DNA from: Peptoniphilaceae bacterium
GTDB taxonomy: Bacteria > Bacillota > Clostridia > Tissierellales > Peptoniphilaceae
Length of the DNA stretch: 64,000 nucleotides
Direction: 5' to 3'
Assembly: GCA_028726605.1 (NCBI GenBank)
Contig: JAQYPV010000007.1
Location: forward strand, 1 to 64,000
Position numbers and translations under genes: made by a program. Every line of letters starts with the position of its first letter. Position 1 is the stretch's first letter. The notes below the pieces were generated by a model, which was not told the origin of the DNA, searched no databases, and saw nothing but the letters and a program-made list of their open reading frames with translations. Of this stretch, positions 34,035 through 45,519 are shown piece by piece.

Positions 34035-35765
34035 ATGAAGACGCGAAGGGGTCTCAGGATTCCGATGGTGGCGGGAGGCGTGTTGCTCTCCCTCGCACTC
34101 ATGCCCATCGAAAAGGGACGCGTCCCCATGGTCTTGGCACGGCAAGCAAACGTTTTGACACGGTCGGAAAGTGGAGCCATACGCACAGACGAATTGCGTG
34201 CCTTCATTTGGAATTTTGACATCGAGACGCTGTCTTTGGAAAGCGAGACACTGCACTACCTGGTCTTTGAAGCCGGCGCGCAGTTCGGACGGGGGGCGCT
34301 GGCCATGCAAGTGACGGTGAGCCAGAACGGGGAACTCATCGACAACCCTAAGGTGACGACGACGCAGTACACCGATCGATTCTACGTGTCCTACAACAGG
34401 CTCAAATCTGGTGAGACGTATACCGTGACCGTGGAAGTCTTCGACGAGGACGGTCGCACGGCGAAAGCCGTCGGCGTGGTGCGCGTGGAGGGGCAGGGCA
34501 AGCAACTGCGCGCGGTGACGCTCAAGTCCATCGCCCCCTACGTCTATCACGTGACTGTGGACGGAAATGGCGGTTTCGTGCGCTTGGAGAAAGATCCTTC
34601 CTACGAAGTGTTTCAATACCAGGAGAAGTTCCTCCTGCCGACGCCCAGCATGGCGAGTTCCCCCACGGGTGATGGGGTCTTTGATGGCTGGGAAGTGAAC
34701 GGCGTGCGCATGAAAGCCGGTGAGACGATTGAGATCACCGAGGATACCACATTGAAGGTGCTGTGGAAGGTGGAGTCGTCTTCCTCGAGTTCTTCCGCGT
34801 CTTCGGATGGCTCAGAATCGGACGGCGCGCTATTGCCGGGAGCGCCTGAAGACCCCACCGCTCCGGACGTGCTCCACTATCCGGGGGCTGCGCGCCAGGA
34901 CGTGGCCGTGGCCATTTCCAAGGCCTTCTTTCCCTCGGCTGAAAAAGTCATTTTGGTGCAAAGCATGGCCGATGCGGATGCCTTGAGCGGTTCGAATGTG
35001 TCACAAGGGCGTTATCCCATTTTGTACACGAATGCAGAACTCCTTTTCGAGACCACCAGGGAAGAGATCAAGCGGCTCGGTGCGAAGGAAGTCATCGTCA
35101 TGGGTGGGGAAAAGACCATTCCACCGAAGATCGTCCAAGATGTGTCGGAGATCAGTGGCGTGGAAAAGGTCACTCGCCTCGGCGGCGCGGATCGCTATGC
35201 GGTAAACGTCAATACCCTCTCGTATTTTGACGCCTATGACTCAGTCGTCTTTGCGCAGGGCTTGGCCACAGCGGACGCCCTCGCCGCGGCGCCCTATGCA
35301 CATCACCAAAAGGCACCTTTAGTCTTAGTGAAACAGAGCAGCGTGCCGGAGGTGACTGCTGAGGCGCTTAAAGGGCGAGCGCTCACGAAAGCGACGCTCA
35401 TCGGCGGTGAAAAGACCGTCACAAAGGAGGCGCAGGATGCGCTCTCAGATTTCCTTCGCATTGACGTCAAGCGCATCTCTGGAAAAGACCGTTACGAGCT
35501 GGCCTGTGAAGTGGCAAAGGCGTTTGAAAAGCCGAAAGAGGCATTTGTGACCAATGGCCTCATGTGGTCTGACGCCTTGACCGCTTCTTGCGCAGCACAG
35601 CAGACGGGCTCACCGCTTCTGCTCGTTCGCCAGAGCGTCATTCCCGGGGAAGTGGCTCAATACATTAGGAACAATCCCTCGTTGGTTCGGCTCCACGTCT
35701 TGGGAGGGCCGGCGTCCATCAATCCGAACATGGATGCGATTCTGAAGGGCCTGGATCTCATATAG
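34035..35765 (+). CDS. Secreted surface protein with C-terminal cell-wall-binding repeat 2 (CWB2) domains
   Basis: Repeated V..GG..(T/S)I...V..dl....V.Rl.G.DRYavn blocks; N-terminal signal sequence. Confidence 0.85.
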   Translation: MKTRRGLRIPMVAGGVLLSLALMPIEKGRVPMVLARQANVLTRSESGAIRTDELRAFIWNFDIETLSLESETLHYLVFEAGAQFGRGALAMQVTVSQNGELIDNPKVTTTQYTDRFYVSYNRLKSGETYTVTVEVFDEDGRTAKAVGVVRVEGQGKQLRAVTLKSIAPYVYHVTVDGNGGFVRLEKDPSYEVFQYQEKFLLPTPSMASSPTGDGVFDGWEVNGVRMKAGETIEITEDTTLKVLWKVESSSSSSSASSDGSESDGALLPGAPEDPTAPDVLHYPGAARQDVAVAISKAFFPSAEKVILVQSMADADALSGSNVSQGRYPILYTNAELLFETTREEIKRLGAKEVIVMGGEKTIPPKIVQDVSEISGVEKVTRLGGADRYAVNVNTLSYFDAYDSVVFAQGLATADALAAAPYAHHQKAPLVLVKQSSVPEVTAEALKGRALTKATLIGGEKTVTKEAQDALSDFLRIDVKRISGKDRYELACEVAKAFEKPKEAFVTNGLMWSDALTASCAAQQTGSPLLLVRQSVIPGEVAQYIRNNPSLVRLHVLGGPASINPNMDAILKGLDLI

Positions 35766-35898: not shown

Positions 35899-37140
35899 TC
35901 ATTGCCAGTTCGCCAAGAAGCTCCCGGCCAGAGACAGGAAGATGGGGTTAAAGATGTCGTCCACGATGACGGCCCACGACGGATACAGGATCCACGCCGT
36001 ATTGTGGTAGCCGTATTCCTGCATGAGTGCGCGCTCATTGGCCACCGCATTGGAACCGGAGCCGCAGCCCCATCCGACGTTGCCCGCCGCCATGACGGCT
36101 GCGCCGTAGTCTTTCCCGAACATGCGGAACGAGACGAAGATGGCGAAGAGGGCGATGAAGATGCCTTGAGCCAAGAGGATGATGCCCATTTGGCCCGCCA
36201 CCGGGGCGAGTTTCGTGAAGTCGATGGACATCAACACGAGGGCGAGGTAGAGTTCCAGCCACATGTCTTCCAAAGCGTTCACTTCTGGCAGGTAGATCTC
36301 GCGTCCCGTCTCTTCCATGACGTTGCGGACGATGGCGCCGGCAAAGAGGCAGCCGATGAACTTTGGCATTTCAATCATCGGAATGTTGTCGAGCAACATG
36401 TAAATGGGCATCCCGAGGGCGCAGGCCAGCAGGACGATGGCGAACGCGTAGATGAGGCGCGTGCCGTCCAACGCGTTCACCTTGCCACTCTTGTGATCTT
36501 CGGGGATGTCGTTGGGGTCAGATTTGAGGTTGTGCTTGTGAATGAGGTAGGCGCCCACAGGTCCGCCGATGAGCGATCCCATGATGTTGCCCATGGTGCC
36601 CGCGGCCACGCCGATGGTGGTGGCGTCCGCTGCGCCCATGTTCTCAAAAATGGGGCCGAAGGCGCTGGCCGTACCGACGCCGCCCGACATCGCAGCAGAC
36701 GAGACCTGCAACGACAAGAGCGGGTGGAGGCCCACGAGTTTGCCGAGGGTCACGCCCAAGACGTTCTGCAGCGTGATCAAGAGGCACGCGGCCACGGCGA
36801 TGTTCACTACTAATTTGCCGCCCGACCGCTTTAAAAGCTTCATGGAGAAGCCGTAGCCGATGCACATGAAAAAGATGTTCTGCGCCAGATCCTTCAAAAT
36901 CTTCGTGTCAAACGAGAACTGCAGCGTGCCGGTGCTGTTGATGATCGAAACGATGATCGAAAACAGGATGCCCGAGACCACTGGCGCCGGAATGGCGTAC
37001 TTTCGCAAGTGCGCCGACTTCGACACGATGAAGCGTCCGAGGAAGATGACGATGGCGGCAAAGCCCAACGTCGTCAAGTACTCAAACTGATAGGTACCGG
37101 CGGCTTGGTCATACGTTCCAAAATAACTGATGATGTCCAT
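35899..37140 (-). CDS. gltS: Sodium/glutamate symporter
   Basis: GltS/ESS-type membrane protein; SGGVGTASAFGPIFE. Confidence 0.88.
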   Translation of the reverse strand: MDIISYFGTYDQAAGTYQFEYLTTLGFAAIVIFLGRFIVSKSAHLRKYAIPAPVVSGILFSIIVSIINSTGTLQFSFDTKILKDLAQNIFFMCIGYGFSMKLLKRSGGKLVVNIAVAACLLITLQNVLGVTLGKLVGLHPLLSLQVSSAAMSGGVGTASAFGPIFENMGAADATTIGVAAGTMGNIMGSLIGGPVGAYLIHKHNLKSDPNDIPEDHKSGKVNALDGTRLIYAFAIVLLACALGMPIYMLLDNIPMIEMPKFIGCLFAGAIVRNVMEETGREIYLPEVNALEDMWLELYLALVLMSIDFTKLAPVAGQMGIILLAQGIFIALFAIFVSFRMFGKDYGAAVMAAGNVGWGCGSGSNAVANERALMQEYGYHNTAWILYPSWAVIVDDIFNPIFLSLAGSFLANWQ

Positions 37141-37226
37141 TTTTCCTCCCAATTCGTTTCATAATGCCTTGCATGACCATTCCGTAAGTTCATATTATAC
37201 ACAGAATTGAGAGATCTTAGATACTT

Positions 37227-38705
37227 TTACTGTGCTTTTTGGTATGGCTCGTACAGCACGCGATCTGCTTGGATGGCCAGCGCGCATTCCACGCGTTTGC
37301 GGAACAGCTCACAGCTCAGCGGCACTGTCGCTTGGAGGTCGCCGGCCGCATGAAGCGCGTTGGCGGCGCATCCGCCGGAGCAGTAGAGTTTCGCCCAGCA
37401 GTCTTGACAATCCGGCCGGCTGTAGCAATTGCACTCCTTAAAATCCGCCGTGAGTTCCGGCTTTTCGATGCCCGTCATCACGTTGCCGATCTTAAAGTCC
37501 GTCTCACCGACGAATTGATGACAGGGGTAGAGATCGCCTTCTGGCGTGACCGCCAGGTACTCCGTGCCGATGCCGCAGCCGCTGATGCGCTTGTGCACAC
37601 ACGGCCCGCCTTCGAGGTTCATCATGAAGTGATAGAAGACGAAGGGGTGGTCTTCGGGAGGAAGCGCGTCGACGTCTTCGCCACTGGCTACGGCATCCGC
37701 GGCGAGGCGATTGCGCCGGATCATCTCGGCCGCGAGCTTGTCGTATTCGGCTTTCAGCGCCTCGACGTCGTCGGGACCCAGCATATACGGCTCGTCCGGG
37801 TCGCCGATGACCGGCTCCATGGAGAGCCGGTAAAAGCCCAGATTGGCCATGTGGAGCACGTCTTGATAAAAGTCCACGTTGTTTTTGGTATACGTGCCTC
37901 GCATGTAGTACTCCTGGTCGCCCCGCGACGACACGAAGGATTTAAAGCGCGGCACGATGCGATCGTAGCTGCCGCGGCCGTCGACCGTGTGGCGCAGACG
38001 GTCGTGGACTTCTTTGCGCCCGTCCAGCGAGAGCACCACGTTGTGCATGTTTTCGTTCAGGAAGGAGATCATCTCATCGTCCAAGAGCATGCCGTTGGTG
38101 GTAAAGGTGAAGCGAAAGTGCTTGCCGGCGTCCTGCTCCTTTTCGCGCGCGTAGCGCACCGTCTCTTTGACGACGTCCCAGTTGAGAGCCGGCTCTCCGC
38201 CGAAGAAGTCGATGTCGATGTTGCGATGGGGACCGGATTCGCGGATGACGAAGTCGATGGCGCGTTTCGCCACGTCGAGCGACATGAGGGCGCGCTCGCC
38301 GTGGTACTTGCCCTGGCTGGCAAAGCAGTAGTCGCAGTCCAGATTGCAGGTGTGCGCGACGTTGAGGCAGAGGGCCTTCACGTAGGTCTTGCGCTCCCGG
38401 AGTTTCAAACTGAGATCCGCGTAGGGATCCTCAGTGAAGAGCTGCTCGTTCGCGATGAGTTCGCGCAAGTCGTTCAAGGTTTCCTGCAGGTCCGCTTCGT
38501 CGGCTTCGGGGAAAGCCTCGTGGAGTTCGGAATTGAGCCTCTCTGACGAAACCGCTTCAAGGGGCGTCAGAGATTCGTTCTTCAGGTGACGATCCAGTGC
38601 CTCCACGGCGTATTCGGCCATGGAATCCAACAGGTGGACGGCTCCGGAGTAGGTATCCACGGCGAAGGCAAGGCCTTGAGCATGGAATTGATGAATCATG
38701 GACAA
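37227..38705 (-). CDS. scfB: SCIFF peptide thioether maturase (radical SAM, SPASM/twitch C-terminus)
   Basis: VAHTCNLDCDYCFASQGKYHGERALMS radical SAM CxxxCxxC; C-terminal Cys cluster CNCYSRPDCQDCWAKLYCSGGCAANA; adjacent SCIFF gene. Confidence 0.93.
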   Translation of the reverse strand: MSMIHQFHAQGLAFAVDTYSGAVHLLDSMAEYAVEALDRHLKNESLTPLEAVSSERLNSELHEAFPEADEADLQETLNDLRELIANEQLFTEDPYADLSLKLRERKTYVKALCLNVAHTCNLDCDYCFASQGKYHGERALMSLDVAKRAIDFVIRESGPHRNIDIDFFGGEPALNWDVVKETVRYAREKEQDAGKHFRFTFTTNGMLLDDEMISFLNENMHNVVLSLDGRKEVHDRLRHTVDGRGSYDRIVPRFKSFVSSRGDQEYYMRGTYTKNNVDFYQDVLHMANLGFYRLSMEPVIGDPDEPYMLGPDDVEALKAEYDKLAAEMIRRNRLAADAVASGEDVDALPPEDHPFVFYHFMMNLEGGPCVHKRISGCGIGTEYLAVTPEGDLYPCHQFVGETDFKIGNVMTGIEKPELTADFKECNCYSRPDCQDCWAKLYCSGGCAANALHAAGDLQATVPLSCELFRKRVECALAIQADRVLYEPYQKAQ

Positions 38706-38730
38706 TCCTATCTAAGCGACAGCGTCGCAA

Positions 38731-38762
38731 TAAAAAAGACGCGGAGCGAAACGTTCCGCGCC
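38731..38762 (-). terminator. Terminator between the SCIFF gene and its maturase
   Basis: Minus strand CGCGGA...TCCGCG-TCTTTTTT. Confidence 0.75.
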
Positions 38763-38770
38763 TGAACAGT

Positions 38771-38917
38771 TTACTTTCTCTTCTGTTCGCAATCCTGATT
38801 GGCGATGCCGCACGAGGTCTTGCAAGCCGATTGGCATGAGGTCTGGCATTCGCCGCAGCCGCCCTCTTTGACGCTCTTCTTCAAATCGCGCGTGTTCAAA
38901 GTTTTAATATGTGTCAT
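38771..38917 (-). CDS. scfA: SCIFF precursor peptide (six cysteines in forty-five residues)
   Basis: MTHIKTLNTRDLKKSVKEGGCGECQTSCQSACKTSCGIANQDCEQKRK; SD gggagga; too short for the ORF track. Confidence 0.95.
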   Translation of the reverse strand: MTHIKTLNTRDLKKSVKEGGCGECQTSCQSACKTSCGIANQDCEQKRK

Positions 38918-38964
38918 GATTTCCTCCCTCAGTCTGATGCCCCATCACGCAGGCGTTTTGTTTT

Positions 38965-38993
38965 ATGATAGCGATTCAAAGGGATGGCGTCAA
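38965..38993 (-). promoter_or_regulatory. Promoter of the SCIFF gene
   Basis: Minus strand TTGACG-N17-TATCAT. Confidence 0.65.
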
Positions 38994-40448
38994 ATCCTCA
39001 AGGGAAACGCACCAGACCTCGGGGGCGACGCTGCCGTTGGGGTCGGCCTCGGTGCGCACGGGGATGCCCTGCTTGGCGAGTTGCAGGAGGTGAGACACCA
39101 TGGCGTCGTCGAGAGGTTCTCCCGGCAAAAGCAGTGGAATGCCCGGCGGATAGGTCCAAACCGTCTCCGCGGCGACGTGGCCCCGGGCTTCGCGCAGCGA
39201 AAGGCGGATGCGCTTTGCCCGTCTGGCGACGTCCAGCGGGAGCGCAGGACGGGGCAGGGGCGGCAGGGGAGGCAGCAATGGCTTGGGCGCGGTGCTTCGT
39301 CCAAGGCGTGCGTCGATCGTTCGAATGGCTTCCACAAAACGCGGGTACATCGCGAAATCGTCGGCGACAGAGAGCAGTGCGAGGATCGACTGCGGGTGTA
39401 CCATCTCTGGCTCGTATCCCGCCGTGCGCATCATCTGTGCCAGCATGGGGCCGTTACAGTCGCTCTCGCGCGTCGAAAGTACGACTTTAAACGGATCATC
39501 GGTTTTCACGTGTTTTATCTTTTGAAGCCCCGCCTCGCCGTGCCATAGGGCCGACGCTTCGTTCCAGTGAGCGAGGCTCTCCTGATGGGCGTGCACGCCT
39601 TCGCGTTCAAGCCACTTGAGACAGCAATCGATGGACGCCAGGATGAGGTGTGACGGCGAGCTCGTCTCGAAGATGGAAATGGCCCGGGAGAGTTCTACGG
39701 GATCCACATCCCGGGACGCGTGGACGAGGGCTGCCGGAGTCAACGCGGGAAGCATCTTGTGAAGGCTTTCGACGACGATGTCCGCGCCCGCGGCGACGGC
39801 ATCGAGGGAAGGGGCAAAATAGCGCAGGTGTGCGCCGTGCGCCTGGTCAACCAAGAGCCGCGCGCCGTGCGCGTGACAGAGGGCTGCGATGGTTTTTACG
39901 TCGGAGACCACGCCTTCAAACGTCGGGGATGTGATGATGACGGTGCGGATGTCGGCATGCTCCGTCAAGGCGCGTTCCACGTCTTCTGGCGCGACGGGTC
40001 CGTTGATGCCGGACGCAAGCCGCGAGGGCACAAGGTAGAACGGGTGGAGGCGTAAGAGCTCCACCCCGTGATAGACGCTCTGATGTGAGGCGCGAGAGAG
40101 CAAGACAGGCGTTTCGGGCGGGCAGAGCGTGTGAATGGCGGATAAGAGACCGCCGGTGGAGCCATTGGTCATGTAAAAACTGTGGGCGGCGCCGCGCTCC
40201 CGGGCGACGTCTTGAAGGCGTGCGCGGAGGGCCGCATCGGGATGGTGAAGATCCCACGAACCTTCGATCTCTGTGACGTCGAGACCGAAGGGCAGATCCG
40301 GCGCCAAAAAGGGATTGCGCTTGTGGCCGGGCATGTGGAGTGGCACGAGCCCGTGCGCTTGAATGTGGCGCAAGGTGTCGAGATAGCTCGTCGCTGGCGC
40401 GAGAGATGGGGAACGATGGTCGTTTCTAGGGAAGGATGCATGGGGCAT
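38976..40448 (-). CDS. Orn/Lys/Arg decarboxylase family (PLP-dependent); exact start uncertain
   Basis: LHMPGHKRN...TNGSTGGLLSAI...LVDQAHGAHL...ESLHKMLPALT. Confidence 0.85.
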   Translation of the reverse strand: MPHASFPRNDHRSPSLAPATSYLDTLRHIQAHGLVPLHMPGHKRNPFLAPDLPFGLDVTEIEGSWDLHHPDAALRARLQDVARERGAAHSFYMTNGSTGGLLSAIHTLCPPETPVLLSRASHQSVYHGVELLRLHPFYLVPSRLASGINGPVAPEDVERALTEHADIRTVIITSPTFEGVVSDVKTIAALCHAHGARLLVDQAHGAHLRYFAPSLDAVAAGADIVVESLHKMLPALTPAALVHASRDVDPVELSRAISIFETSSPSHLILASIDCCLKWLEREGVHAHQESLAHWNEASALWHGEAGLQKIKHVKTDDPFKVVLSTRESDCNGPMLAQMMRTAGYEPEMVHPQSILALLSVADDFAMYPRFVEAIRTIDARLGRSTAPKPLLPPLPPLPRPALPLDVARRAKRIRLSLREARGHVAAETVWTYPPGIPLLLPGEPLDDAMVSHLLQLAKQGIPVRTEADPNGSVAPEVWCVSLEDLTPSL

Positions 40449-40627
40449 GGAGCGCTCATTTCTGAATTCAGTCGAAGGCGCAGCCGAAGTCCCTGATTCC
40501 ACTCGGGACAGGTGTGCGACTTTGACACTTTTCGGTATAATAAGGGGGTATTTCTTCCACGTCGCGGCGTCGTCGGGCGCCACGGATTGATGAAGATCAA
40601 AGTGATTATAATGAATTCGGAGGTCTC

Positions 40628-42415
40628 ATGCGAGAATATCGTACGCTCATTCCTTTTATCCGAGAAAATGCACGTCACTATCTCATCGGCATATTGACTT
40701 TGATCCTGGTGGACGCCGTGGATCTCTTTGTGCCGCAGGTCGTGCGCCACTTCGCGGATCTGGCGCAAGCCGGCGCTTTGACCGTGGACGGCATTTTGCG
40801 CATGGCCTTTCTCTTATTGGGCATGGGCGTCTTCATGGCCTTGGGTCGTTATGTCTGGCGCATGCGCATCTTTGGCTCGGGACGGCGGCTCGAGTACTGG
40901 CTGCGCGACCGCCTGTTTCGCAAGTTCCTGACCTTGGATGAGACATTCTACAATGCACAGAGCACAGGCGATTTGATGGCGCATGCGACCAACGACGTCG
41001 AAACCGTGGGGCGCAGCATGAGTAACGGCGTCATGATCTTGGTGGACAGCTTGTTTATGACGACCTTTACCGTGATCATGATGATTACCACCGTCGGCGT
41101 TCAAGATGCGCTCGTGGCGCTCATCTCGCTGCCTTTTCTGGCGTGGGCCATCATGAAGCTCATGGGACCCATTCAGAAGCGCAGTCGTGCCCTCCAAAAT
41201 GCTTTTTCAGATTTGACGACGGAGGTGCAGGAAAATCTCTCCGGCATCCGCGTCATCAAGGCGACGGCCATCGAGGACAACCGCGCGGCGTCGTTTGAAG
41301 AAGTGAACCTCGACTACCAGCAGAAGTTCATCCGTTGGGCCGCTGTGGACATGCTCTTCGATCCGGCCATCACGCTCATTTCGGGATTCAGCTACGTGAT
41401 CTTTCTGGTCTACGGCACCTATCGCATTGCAATGGGGAGCCTCACGATCGGCGCTTTTGTCGCCGTCATTCAATACCTCAACAAGATCGTCTGGCCGCTC
41501 ATCGCTCTCGGGATGGTGACGTCGTTCGTCCAGCGCGGCGTGTCGTCCATGGCGCGCCTCAACGAGATCTTTCGCGCGAAGCCCCGAATCGCTGAGGCGG
41601 AGCATCCCGTGGATGAGGCCCGTCACGAGGGTCGGGTCGTATTTGACCATGTGAGCTTTCGTTACGGCGCTTCGCTTCCCTGGGTGCTCGAGGACGTCTC
41701 GTTTACCCTGGAGCCTGGTCAGTCGCTCGCCATTTTGGGGCGCACCGGCGTCGGCAAGTCCACGATCATTCACCTCTTGTTGCGGCGCTACGAGCCCACG
41801 AAGGGGCGCATTCTGGTGGACGGGCAGGACATTCGCGACCTGTCTTTCGAAAGCCTCTATGACACGTTTGGCGTGGTGGCGCAGGAGAGTTTTCTCTTCT
41901 CGCGGAGCATTGCGGAAAACATCGCCTTTTCAGCGGATCCCAATCGAGGGATCGATGAAAAGCGCGTGCGCGAGGCGGCGGAATTCGCCCAGGTCGCGGA
42001 GGACATCGAAGCCATGTCCGAGGGATATGACACCCTCGTGGGCGAGCGAGGCGTGACGCTCTCAGGAGGTCAAAAACAGCGCGTCTCCATCGCACGCGCC
42101 TACTACAAGGACGCGCCGTTGCTCATCCTCGACGACTCGCTCTCGGCCGTGGACACGGAGACAGAGAGCCGCATTCTGACTGGCATTCGAGAGCACGAAA
42201 AGGGGATCCTGATGATCTCGCAGCGCGTTTCCACGGTACAGGATGCGGATCAGATCATCGTCATCGAGGAGGGGCGCATCACACAGCGCGGCACGCATCA
42301 AGAACTCGTGGCGACGGAGGGCTTTTACAAAGACCTGTACGAGCGTCAGCTGTTGGAGAGCAGTATGGATGCGTCGCACGGTGCGCTTCGCCGAAAGGAG
42401 GGACGTTATGCCTAA
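40628..42415 (+). CDS. ABC exporter half-transporter (permease + ATPase)
   Basis: ABC TMD; LGRTGVGKSTIIHL, LSGGQKQRVSIARAY. Confidence 0.88.
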   Translation: MREYRTLIPFIRENARHYLIGILTLILVDAVDLFVPQVVRHFADLAQAGALTVDGILRMAFLLLGMGVFMALGRYVWRMRIFGSGRRLEYWLRDRLFRKFLTLDETFYNAQSTGDLMAHATNDVETVGRSMSNGVMILVDSLFMTTFTVIMMITTVGVQDALVALISLPFLAWAIMKLMGPIQKRSRALQNAFSDLTTEVQENLSGIRVIKATAIEDNRAASFEEVNLDYQQKFIRWAAVDMLFDPAITLISGFSYVIFLVYGTYRIAMGSLTIGAFVAVIQYLNKIVWPLIALGMVTSFVQRGVSSMARLNEIFRAKPRIAEAEHPVDEARHEGRVVFDHVSFRYGASLPWVLEDVSFTLEPGQSLAILGRTGVGKSTIIHLLLRRYEPTKGRILVDGQDIRDLSFESLYDTFGVVAQESFLFSRSIAENIAFSADPNRGIDEKRVREAAEFAQVAEDIEAMSEGYDTLVGERGVTLSGGQKQRVSIARAYYKDAPLLILDDSLSAVDTETESRILTGIREHEKGILMISQRVSTVQDADQIIVIEEGRITQRGTHQELVATEGFYKDLYERQLLESSMDASHGALRRKEGRYA

Positions 42416-44315
42416 AGACCGAGAGTCCAAACAGACGTGGGGCCAATTGCGACGTCTGTCCGCCTTTGCCAAACCGTATCTGCGAAGCTATCTCGTGATC
42501 TTTTTCCTGATGTTCTGCTCCATCGGCGCGGGTCTCCTGGGTCCGAAGATCATCCAGGTTCTGATCGACCGGCATTTGAATCCGCTGGGGACGCTGTCGC
42601 TGGAGGCGTCCGTTCGAGAGGCGCACGTCCAGGCAGCGTTCCGATTGGGCTTCATCTACCTCCTTTCCGTTATCGTCAACTTCATCACAATGTACGGCTC
42701 GGACTTCTTGATGCACAAGACGGGCGCGCACATCGTGACGGATTTGCGCCGCAAGCTCTATCGCCACGTGCTTAACTTGCCCATGCGCTACTTTGACCAG
42801 CACGCCATCGGCGGGATCGTAACGCGGCTCACAAATGACACGGAAAACGTGCTGGATCTTTACACCTATGTCTTCACCAACTTCTTCCGCAATATCGTGA
42901 TGATTCTGAGCATCATCGTCGTGATGTTTTCTCTGGATGTGCGGCTGGCGTCTCTGGTGTTGCTCTTCGCACCGGTGGTCGCGGCCATTTCGGTCGTGTT
43001 TCAAAAGCAGATCCGCATCATCTACGACAAGCAACGCGCCATCCGCTCGCTCATCAACACCAAACTCTCTGAGAACCTCTCGGGCATGAGCGTCATTCAG
43101 ATCTTTCACCGGGAGAAGGCCATCTTCGATGAATTCGACGAGACGAGCCGCGCCTATTACGACGTGAGTCGCAACGAAGTGCGTGATTACGCCATCTACC
43201 GCCCGCTGGTAGAACTGCTGCAGGCGCTGGGCCTTGCGATGCTGTTCTGGTTCGGCGGCCGAGGTCAGATGCGCGGCGCGCTGACGTTTGGCGTGCTCTA
43301 CGCCTTCATCAACTACTTGCAACGCTTCTTCCGCCCCATTTTGGACATGGCTGAGATCTTCAACATCATGCAGTCGTCGTTCTCCTCTTCGTCGCGTCTC
43401 ATGACGCTCTTAGATCAGGAAGAGGAGGAGTACGGCAAGGGGGTGGACGTGCCCGAGGGCGGTTTTGTGGGAAAAATTGAGTTCGACCACGTCTGGTTTC
43501 GCTATAATCATCCTGAGGATGCCTTGCGCGAGGCGGCTTCAGAGGACGCCACGCTTTTAACGGATGGGTACAGAGGCGATGCCGACCTCTCTGATGCGGC
43601 GGCTTCGGATGAGTGGATTTTGAAGGATGTGTCCTTCACCATCGAACCGGGCAGTTTTGTGGCCTTCGTCGGAGCGACGGGCGCGGGGAAGAGCACCATT
43701 TTGAGCCTCATCGCGCGCTTTTACCCGGTCGACAAGGGGGAGATCCGCATCGACGGCGTGAACGTCAACGACTACGACCTCGTGCAGTTGCGCCGCGCAC
43801 TGGGGACGGTGCAGCAGGACGTCTTCTTGTTCCGCGGCGACATTCTGGGCAACATCGCCATCGGCCGTCCTGATGTCGGCCGTCGGGAGATCGTGGAGGC
43901 GGCGCGCCTGGTGAACGCGGAGGACTTCATCTGCCAGTTGCCCAAGGGTTACGATGAACCCGTCATGGAGCGCGGCGCGACGCTCTCAGCCGGCCAGCGC
44001 CAGCTCCTGTCGTTTGCACGCACCATCGCGGGTGATCCGTCCATTTTGATTTTGGACGAGGCGACGGCCAACATCGACACGCAGACGGAACAGCTCATTC
44101 AGAAGGCCATCGCGAAGATGGCTCAGAACCGGACGATGCTGGCCGTGGCGCACCGCATTTCTACCATCGCGGGCGCCGATCAGATCATCGTCATGAACCG
44201 CGGGGAAATTGCCGAGCGCGGGACGCAGGACGAGCTCTTGGCGAAGGACGGCTTGTTCCGCGTGCTCTACGAATTGCAATATGGAAAGGAGGTCTCGCAT
44301 GCGACCAGCGAATGA
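42408..44315 (+). CDS. ABC exporter half-transporter, partner of upstream ORF
   Basis: VGATGAGKSTILSLIARFY, LSAGQRQLLSFARTI; overlaps upstream stop. Confidence 0.88.
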   Translation: MPKDRESKQTWGQLRRLSAFAKPYLRSYLVIFFLMFCSIGAGLLGPKIIQVLIDRHLNPLGTLSLEASVREAHVQAAFRLGFIYLLSVIVNFITMYGSDFLMHKTGAHIVTDLRRKLYRHVLNLPMRYFDQHAIGGIVTRLTNDTENVLDLYTYVFTNFFRNIVMILSIIVVMFSLDVRLASLVLLFAPVVAAISVVFQKQIRIIYDKQRAIRSLINTKLSENLSGMSVIQIFHREKAIFDEFDETSRAYYDVSRNEVRDYAIYRPLVELLQALGLAMLFWFGGRGQMRGALTFGVLYAFINYLQRFFRPILDMAEIFNIMQSSFSSSSRLMTLLDQEEEEYGKGVDVPEGGFVGKIEFDHVWFRYNHPEDALREAASEDATLLTDGYRGDADLSDAAASDEWILKDVSFTIEPGSFVAFVGATGAGKSTILSLIARFYPVDKGEIRIDGVNVNDYDLVQLRRALGTVQQDVFLFRGDILGNIAIGRPDVGRREIVEAARLVNAEDFICQLPKGYDEPVMERGATLSAGQRQLLSFARTIAGDPSILILDEATANIDTQTEQLIQKAIAKMAQNRTMLAVAHRISTIAGADQIIVMNRGEIAERGTQDELLAKDGLFRVLYELQYGKEVSHATSE

Positions 44316-45519
44316 CTTGGGCGTCTACAGCCAGTTTTTTGCCCTCCACAAGAATTTGGCCTATCAGATCGCCTTCACGTACACACAAGATGAGGAGACG
44401 GCGGAGCGGGTGGTCGAGCAAGCCATGCGTCAGATGCGCCTCTCCGGCTTTCTGGATTCCGATCTTTCGCGGGAGGACAAGAGGGGACTGTTAGCGCTCA
44501 TCACGCGCCATCGCGCTCTGGTGGCGGCGCGGGAGAATCACAACGCAGCGGCGCACCGCGAGGAGGCCTTGCCGAAGCCGACGATGGTGGGCGATGCGGA
44601 GGTGTCCATCTACGGAGAACTCATCTCCAAGATTCCGACGCGGGATCGGATCGTGCTCATCATGGTGGCCGTCTACGGCCTGTCGGACGCCACGATTGCG
44701 CGCGCCCTTCAGTTGAAGCCGGCGGCGGTGACGAAACGACGCCAGCGCAGCTTGCAGTTCATCGCAGAGCAGTACGACGGGCACAAGGACCCGGAATCCC
44801 TCTTGGAGGATGCTTCATTTCTCACGGCGCTCACGCTGTGGCTCAAAGGGCGCATCAATTCCATTGAGGCCATGAGCAACATGGATCCGCACGCGTTTTC
44901 TGCGGAGACGGAGGAACGCATCATTCAGGCCATGGCGGATCCGCGCCGAGAACGTGCGTTTCGCGCGCTCGACAACGCAGGCAACATCTCACTGTTTGCG
45001 GGGATTCTGGTGTTGGTGGTGGTCCTCGCGATCGTCATCGCGCAGGCGTTTAAGTCAAACGATCGCCCCAACGTGGTGGCGTTGGATTCTTCTCTCGTCT
45101 TTGGGGAGACGCAGGAGGGGCTGGAGTCGATGGCGACGGAGGCTCCTGTGGAGAAGACAAAGCGTATTCCACTGGCGCATGTCGCCGTCGTGCCCGGCGC
45201 CGTCGTCTTCTACGACGCCGATGACGGGAGGGTCTATCGCGCGCCGGCGGGGCAGGAGGCGCAGGAGGTCTTGGACATCGGCGAGACGGTGGAGCAGGCT
45301 TACGGCTTGCAGCACATCGGTGAGGTGGATGGGACGATTTATCTGGCACTCATCGACGGTCGGGGTGCGCACATCGAGGGAAGCCCCGCAAAGCTCGTCA
45401 TCGAGCCGTATTGGCAGGAGAGCTGGTTTGCCGACGGCAAGGAACCGGATGCGTCGACGCGCGTGCGGCGCGGGGGCGTCGCCTACACGTTTGGCGCAGA
45501 GGAAGAGACAGAGGATTGA
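44299..45519 (+). CDS. Sigma-70-like (regions 2/4) protein fused to a transmembrane helix and an extracytoplasmic domain
   Basis: Region-2-like AYQIAFTYTQDEETAERVVEQAMRQM; region-4 HTH LSDATIARALQLKPAAVTKRRQRSLQFI; TM ISLFAGILVLVVVLAIVIAQAF. Confidence 0.6.
   Translation: MRPANDLGVYSQFFALHKNLAYQIAFTYTQDEETAERVVEQAMRQMRLSGFLDSDLSREDKRGLLALITRHRALVAARENHNAAAHREEALPKPTMVGDAEVSIYGELISKIPTRDRIVLIMVAVYGLSDATIARALQLKPAAVTKRRQRSLQFIAEQYDGHKDPESLLEDASFLTALTLWLKGRINSIEAMSNMDPHAFSAETEERIIQAMADPRRERAFRALDNAGNISLFAGILVLVVVLAIVIAQAFKSNDRPNVVALDSSLVFGETQEGLESMATEAPVEKTKRIPLAHVAVVPGAVVFYDADDGRVYRAPAGQEAQEVLDIGETVEQAYGLQHIGEVDGTIYLALIDGRGAHIEGSPAKLVIEPYWQESWFADGKEPDASTRVRRGGVAYTFGAEEETED

Follow-up and report, generated by a model that had tools for sequence, protein, structure and literature searches.

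The locus at 37227–38917 of the window (the whole 64,000-nucleotide stretch analysed, from a Peptoniphilaceae bacterium) is a Gly37-type SCIFF locus, whose peptide probably carries a Thr34-type cross-link and probably has a neighbouring decarboxylase-family enzyme as functional partner. SCIFF peptides are among the most widespread RiPPs of Clostridia and their role is largely unresolved; a partner enzyme could help explain their purpose, and this recurrent partner is the part of the locus that deserves specialist attention. A preliminary description of this DNA had recognized the precursor and maturase, and that identification stands. Its account of the bond chemistry and its suggested export link do not, and the neighbour to which it gave little weight, the decarboxylase-family gene, is the one best supported.

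The precursor and maturase genes

The precursor gene scfA (38771–38917, minus strand) encodes 48 residues. ORFs of this size fall below the usual length cut-offs. The ORF was found exactly at 38917..38771 with the sequence reported earlier, preceded by a good ribosome binding site, GGGAGG (38923–38928, minus strand). Re-reading places its six cysteines at positions 21, 24, 28, 32, 36 and 43, all within about 45 residues and at the spacing of the SCIFF family. The profile searches proposed in the preliminary description put both genes over the cut-offs, scfA with TIGR03973 (86.1 bits, cut-off 50, E=1.1e-24) and scfB with TIGR03974 (649.4 bits, cut-off 425); scfA also matches PF13165 (85.7 bits, cut-off 27, E=1.9e-24). 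Judged by these scores, the match of scfA to the SCIFF models is not due to chance. A genome search shows that scfA is the sole SCIFF in this genome.

The radical SAM/SPASM maturase gene scfB (37227–38699, minus strand) starts 71 nt downstream of scfA. Its first possible start is the TTG at 38705 (ORF 37227–38705), and the alternative ATG at 38699 is favoured because it fits the N-terminus of CteB better in the alignment. ScfB is homologous to CteB (PDB 5wgg) along its full length, with 480 bits. Thirteen of the 14 CteB cysteines are conserved, including those of the radical SAM and SPASM clusters, and the 14th is itself a non-conserved residue. An extra cysteine, residue 425 of ScfB, lies near the SPASM ligands; it is present in 83 of 96 maturases of the Gly37 clade, and few others have it. 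The sequence evidence thus confirms a genuine SCIFF thioether-peptide locus of the common clostridial type, in a distinct sub-lineage. It is assignable to a known family, the variant features being the Gly37 core and the recurrent enzyme neighbour. The locus probably works as a ranthipeptide system: the N-terminal recognition domain of ScfB would bind the scfA leader, and the enzyme would form at least one radical thioether cross-link.

A weak terminator-like hairpin followed by T6 (38732–38761, minus strand) was seen by a folding scan in the gap between scfA and scfB, where it may act as an attenuator; a stricter terminator scan found nothing in this gap. Terminator-like hairpins lie 3′ of scfA in 114/133 Gly37 and 55/79 Thr37 loci versus about 4% of shuffles, and some of these matches are coding sequence, as the scan window extends into scfB.

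Core variation and the cross-link

The thioethers of ranthipeptides are, by definition, not formed at the alpha carbon, and the SCIFF bond, at first assigned to C-alpha, is now placed at C-gamma (PMC8326336, PMC8172795). The Cys-to-alpha-carbon bond given in the preliminary description is therefore outdated and, for a ranthipeptide, self-contradictory. The published acceptors conflict: in vitro work places the bond at Cys32–Thr37, and co-expression in E. coli places it at Cys32–Thr34 (PMC8326336, PMC8172795).

The core in the window reads CQSAC32KT34SC36G37IA39NQDC, with Thr34 present and the Thr37 acceptor absent. Glycine has no side chain, so a Cys32–Thr37 bond is impossible in this precursor, and the acceptor in the Gly37 lineage would have to be Thr34 or another residue. 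As the encoded cores read, this sub-lineage has lost one of the two threonines over which the published assignments disagree. The bond here is most likely Cys32 to the C-gamma of Thr34.

SCIFF was found in 118 of the 131 genomes of the family to which the window belongs, in 222 of 250 genomes of an order sample, and in 322 of 398 genomes of a phylum sample (320 over the cut-off). Since the invariance of Thr34 in a motif-selected set is circular, only the model-based phylum sample was used for it: all 321 true SCIFFs have Thr34, and residues 32, 36 and 37 all vary. Thr34 together with Thr37 is encoded in 287 genomes of this sample, and Thr34 with Gly37 in eight. Thr37 is replaced in nine of the 321 SCIFF genomes, by Gly in eight and by Ser in one. 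The 27 genomes with neither pattern comprise 25 with CKTS(L/I)T, which is without Cys36, one with SASKTSCS, which is without Cys32, and one sub-threshold chance match. A cautious reading of these cores rules out Cys32–Thr37 as a bond shared by all SCIFFs and allows Cys32–Thr34 to be almost universal. The conservation of Thr34 alone is no proof of an acceptor role, because the whole block QSAxKTS is conserved.

Gly37 occurs in at least 118 matches in GTDB contigs, of which at least 117 are readable SCIFF ORFs, and among the matches listed it is nearly always accompanied by a change of Gly39 to Ala39. A tree of 184 maturases groups all the Gly37-type loci, together with the derived Ser32 loci, in a single clade (SH-aLRT 99). 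Gly37 is best read from this tree as one ancestral change with a maturase lineage of its own.

Other variants were also observed. The replacement of Cys36 by Leu or Ile (CKTS[LI]T) is found in L217–L220 and L222–L242 and accounts for 25 phylum-sample genomes; none of the 12 such loci that were fetched has a decarboxylase-family gene near SCIFF. Cys32, the reported donor, is lost in L054 (6432–6707), L055 (1609–1884) and L314 (3900–4100), where the core reads SASKTSS or SASKTSC. These three loci retain the full maturase and the decarboxylase-family neighbour, and the loss possibly reflects a different cross-link or decay. Two tandem SCIFF units, each with its own leader-like stretch, share one ORF in at least six Gly37-clade loci: L053 (6116–6430), L054, L055, L115, L127 and L132. 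The natural Gly37, Leu36 and Ser32 variants bear on the published threonine conflict and offer ready-made test substrates.

The decarboxylase-family enzyme beside SCIFF

A gene for a short Orn/Lys/Arg-decarboxylase-family PLP enzyme (38976–40583, minus strand) lies 58 nt upstream of scfA. Its true start is probably an internal ATG, such as that at 40445. The protein matches PF01276 (OKR_DC_1) with 134 bits (cut-off 27) and also PF03711, and its nearest solved structure is 2x3l, with residues 68–507 aligned. We take the B. subtilis SpeA-like proteins to belong to the same short family. The motifs SLHKML and DQAHGAH are present, with the PLP lysine, aspartate and histidine. Among 104 aligned enzymes, from either side of SCIFF, the PLP lysine is kept in 103, and none lacks the PLP aspartate or the stacking histidine; the L122 enzyme is the only one without the lysine, having Thr instead. 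By these residues the enzymes look active and do not look like remnants.

In profile searches, a decarboxylase-family gene lies directly beside scfA or scfB in 53 of 71 Gly37-clade loci (adjacency is absent in the other 18) versus 4 of 80 Thr37 or Leu36 loci, counting only loci readable on both sides. Its position varies: it may precede scfA or follow scfB, and in one case it lies downstream on the opposite strand. Genes beyond the unit of scfA, scfB and the decarboxylase-family gene are mostly not conserved. The gene likewise follows scfB in L060, L331, L336 and L339, which form a separate Thr37 clade within the same family. In L260 (G272), a tandem pair of decarboxylase-family genes is divergently oriented to a Thr37 SCIFF. 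Many Thr37 loci sit among genes which, from the cluster sequences, we take to be ruvA, ruvB, ruvC, queA, tgt and yajC. In the Thr37 genomes of the family that were examined, the enzyme gene lies mostly beside a thymidylate-kinase-like gene (tmk, in a housekeeping operon), away from SCIFF.

Because the Gly37 maturases are one clade, SCIFF type and linkage are not independent and plain P values are inflated; Fisher tests give very small P values, which ignore relatedness and are descriptive only. A comparison of type and linkage by independent pairs has no power, as only one independent pair exists. A quick tree suggested that different decarboxylase lineages were recruited independently beside SCIFF. 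We do not claim this, because a tree that groups the upstream and downstream enzymes together is not rejected and scores higher (p-AU 0.915).

Presence of the two genes was also compared. Among the 131 family genomes, 117 have both SCIFF and PF01276, 12 have neither (a class that includes G050 and G059, with PF01276 matches below threshold only) and two are mixed, so that the genes are together or absent in 129. The mixed genomes, G065 and G098, are 76% and 73% complete. Genus g34 contains two genomes with both and four with neither. No SCIFF-less family genome has a maturase over the cut-off. Among the phylum-sample genomes that were tested, PF01276 is over the cut-off in 80 of 80 SCIFF-positive and 44 of 76 SCIFF-negative genomes.

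These observations have to be weighed against a simpler account, in which the locus is a plain SCIFF locus and the decarboxylase-family gene a passive neighbour, the two being widespread clostridial genes that are lost together in reduced genomes. The single origin of the Gly37 clade on the maturase tree agrees with it, and so does the retention of PF01276 in those 44 SCIFF-less genomes. That Thr37 genomes keep the enzyme mostly with tmk, far from SCIFF, also agrees, and for this reason the co-occurrence could partly reflect shared inheritance. However, adjacency survives rearrangements to either side and to the opposite strand while other neighbours change, it recurs in the separate Thr37 clade, and none of the 80 SCIFF-positive genomes lacks the gene. 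We regard passive neighbourhood as a real possibility but a doubtful one. With a functional partnership, the dependence would be on presence of the enzyme, and linkage would have been added in the Gly37 clade.

As a partner, the PLP enzyme would most likely act as a basic amino-acid decarboxylase, and its pathway would be regulated or served by the matured peptide; action on the peptide itself is less likely. In the latter case it would be a third biosynthetic enzyme that modifies the SCIFF peptide or a fragment cut from it. The gene order does resemble a three-gene RiPP operon and the active-site residues are conserved, but the enzyme also occurs away from SCIFF, and to our knowledge this fold occurs only in enzymes whose substrates are free amino acids, which carry an alpha-amine and an alpha-carboxylate. 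Modification of the peptide is unlikely.

Extended to the Clostridia as a whole, the partnership suggests that SCIFF might depend on a short Orn/Lys/Arg-decarboxylase-family enzyme and might have its role in the metabolism of basic amino acids or polyamines, or in the associated signalling, with the Gly37 clade having made a three-gene unit of it; we put this forward tentatively, as something quite possible. Chen 2020, the only genetic study that we found cited (in PMC8102284), is described there as reporting that disruption of SCIFF changes sporulation and the expression of agr genes in C. beijerinckii. A signalling role fits these effects, which are no evidence for a decarboxylase link. We found no paper in the open-access literature searched that links SCIFF or a ranthipeptide with a decarboxylase or PLP, which does not prove novelty. 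The recurrent partner enzyme turns the question of the SCIFF role into simple knock-out and metabolite tests.

The exporter genes and other neighbours

The flanking genes are as first named. A heterodimeric ABC exporter pair (40628–44315, plus strand, PF00664 and PF00005) diverges from the decarboxylase-family gene, and a gltS-like Na+/glutamate symporter gene (35899–37152, minus strand) lies downstream of scfB, matching PF03616 with 284 bits and falling below the TIGR00210 cut-off. The preliminary description had offered both as context and the ABC pair as a possible SCIFF exporter. In its own genus and three related genera the pair does stand divergent beside the decarboxylase-family gene. 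It is kept only in that genus and a few related ones, however, and is missing from most related SCIFF loci; a domain search found no C39 or other peptidase domain in it, and its best matches are multidrug types, MsbA and SmdAB. Export of SCIFF by this pair is very improbable. The gltS-like gene, in turn, is not beside the maturase in four congeneric genomes and is not part of the SCIFF system; in one congeneric genome examined, the gene after the maturase is presumably MgtE-like, from its sequence. As partners of SCIFF, exporter and gltS were both rejected for want of conservation.

Two further ORFs were noticed. The ORF at 34035–35765 encodes a protein that looks secreted and S-layer-like, with CWB2 cell-wall-binding domains. 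Directly after the ABC pair, one ORF (44209–45519) joins a sigma-70 region 4 domain to a probable membrane segment, and a similar gene also follows in congeneric genomes.

Comparison with known systems

CteA/CteB of Clostridium thermocellum and Tte1186a/Tte1186 belong to the same precursor (TIGR03973/PF13165) and maturase (TIGR03974) families as the window genes. The six-Cys spacing, Cys32 and Thr34 are common to all, and CteB aligns over its full length. The window precursor differs from these systems in having Gly37/Ala39 instead of Thr37/Gly39.

Freyrasin (PapA/PapB) and other ranthipeptides are made by related radical SAM/SPASM maturases. ScfB reaches 270 bits with the PapB model NF047865, under its cut-off of 340, the Cys-X3-Asp repeats of freyrasin are absent in the window, and the SCIFF model fits far better. 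Sactipeptides carry alpha-carbon thioethers, the class of bond from which SCIFF was reassigned to the gamma carbon (PMC8326336, PMC8172795).

The short Orn/Lys/Arg decarboxylase family, represented by the S. aureus protein of structure 2x3l, shares PF01276, PF03711 and the PLP lysine, aspartate and histidine with the window enzyme. The window member adjoins scfA/scfB instead of tmk, and the SCIFF genes in turn have this enzyme at their side, in contrast to the yajC/tgt/ruv housekeeping context of many Thr37 loci.
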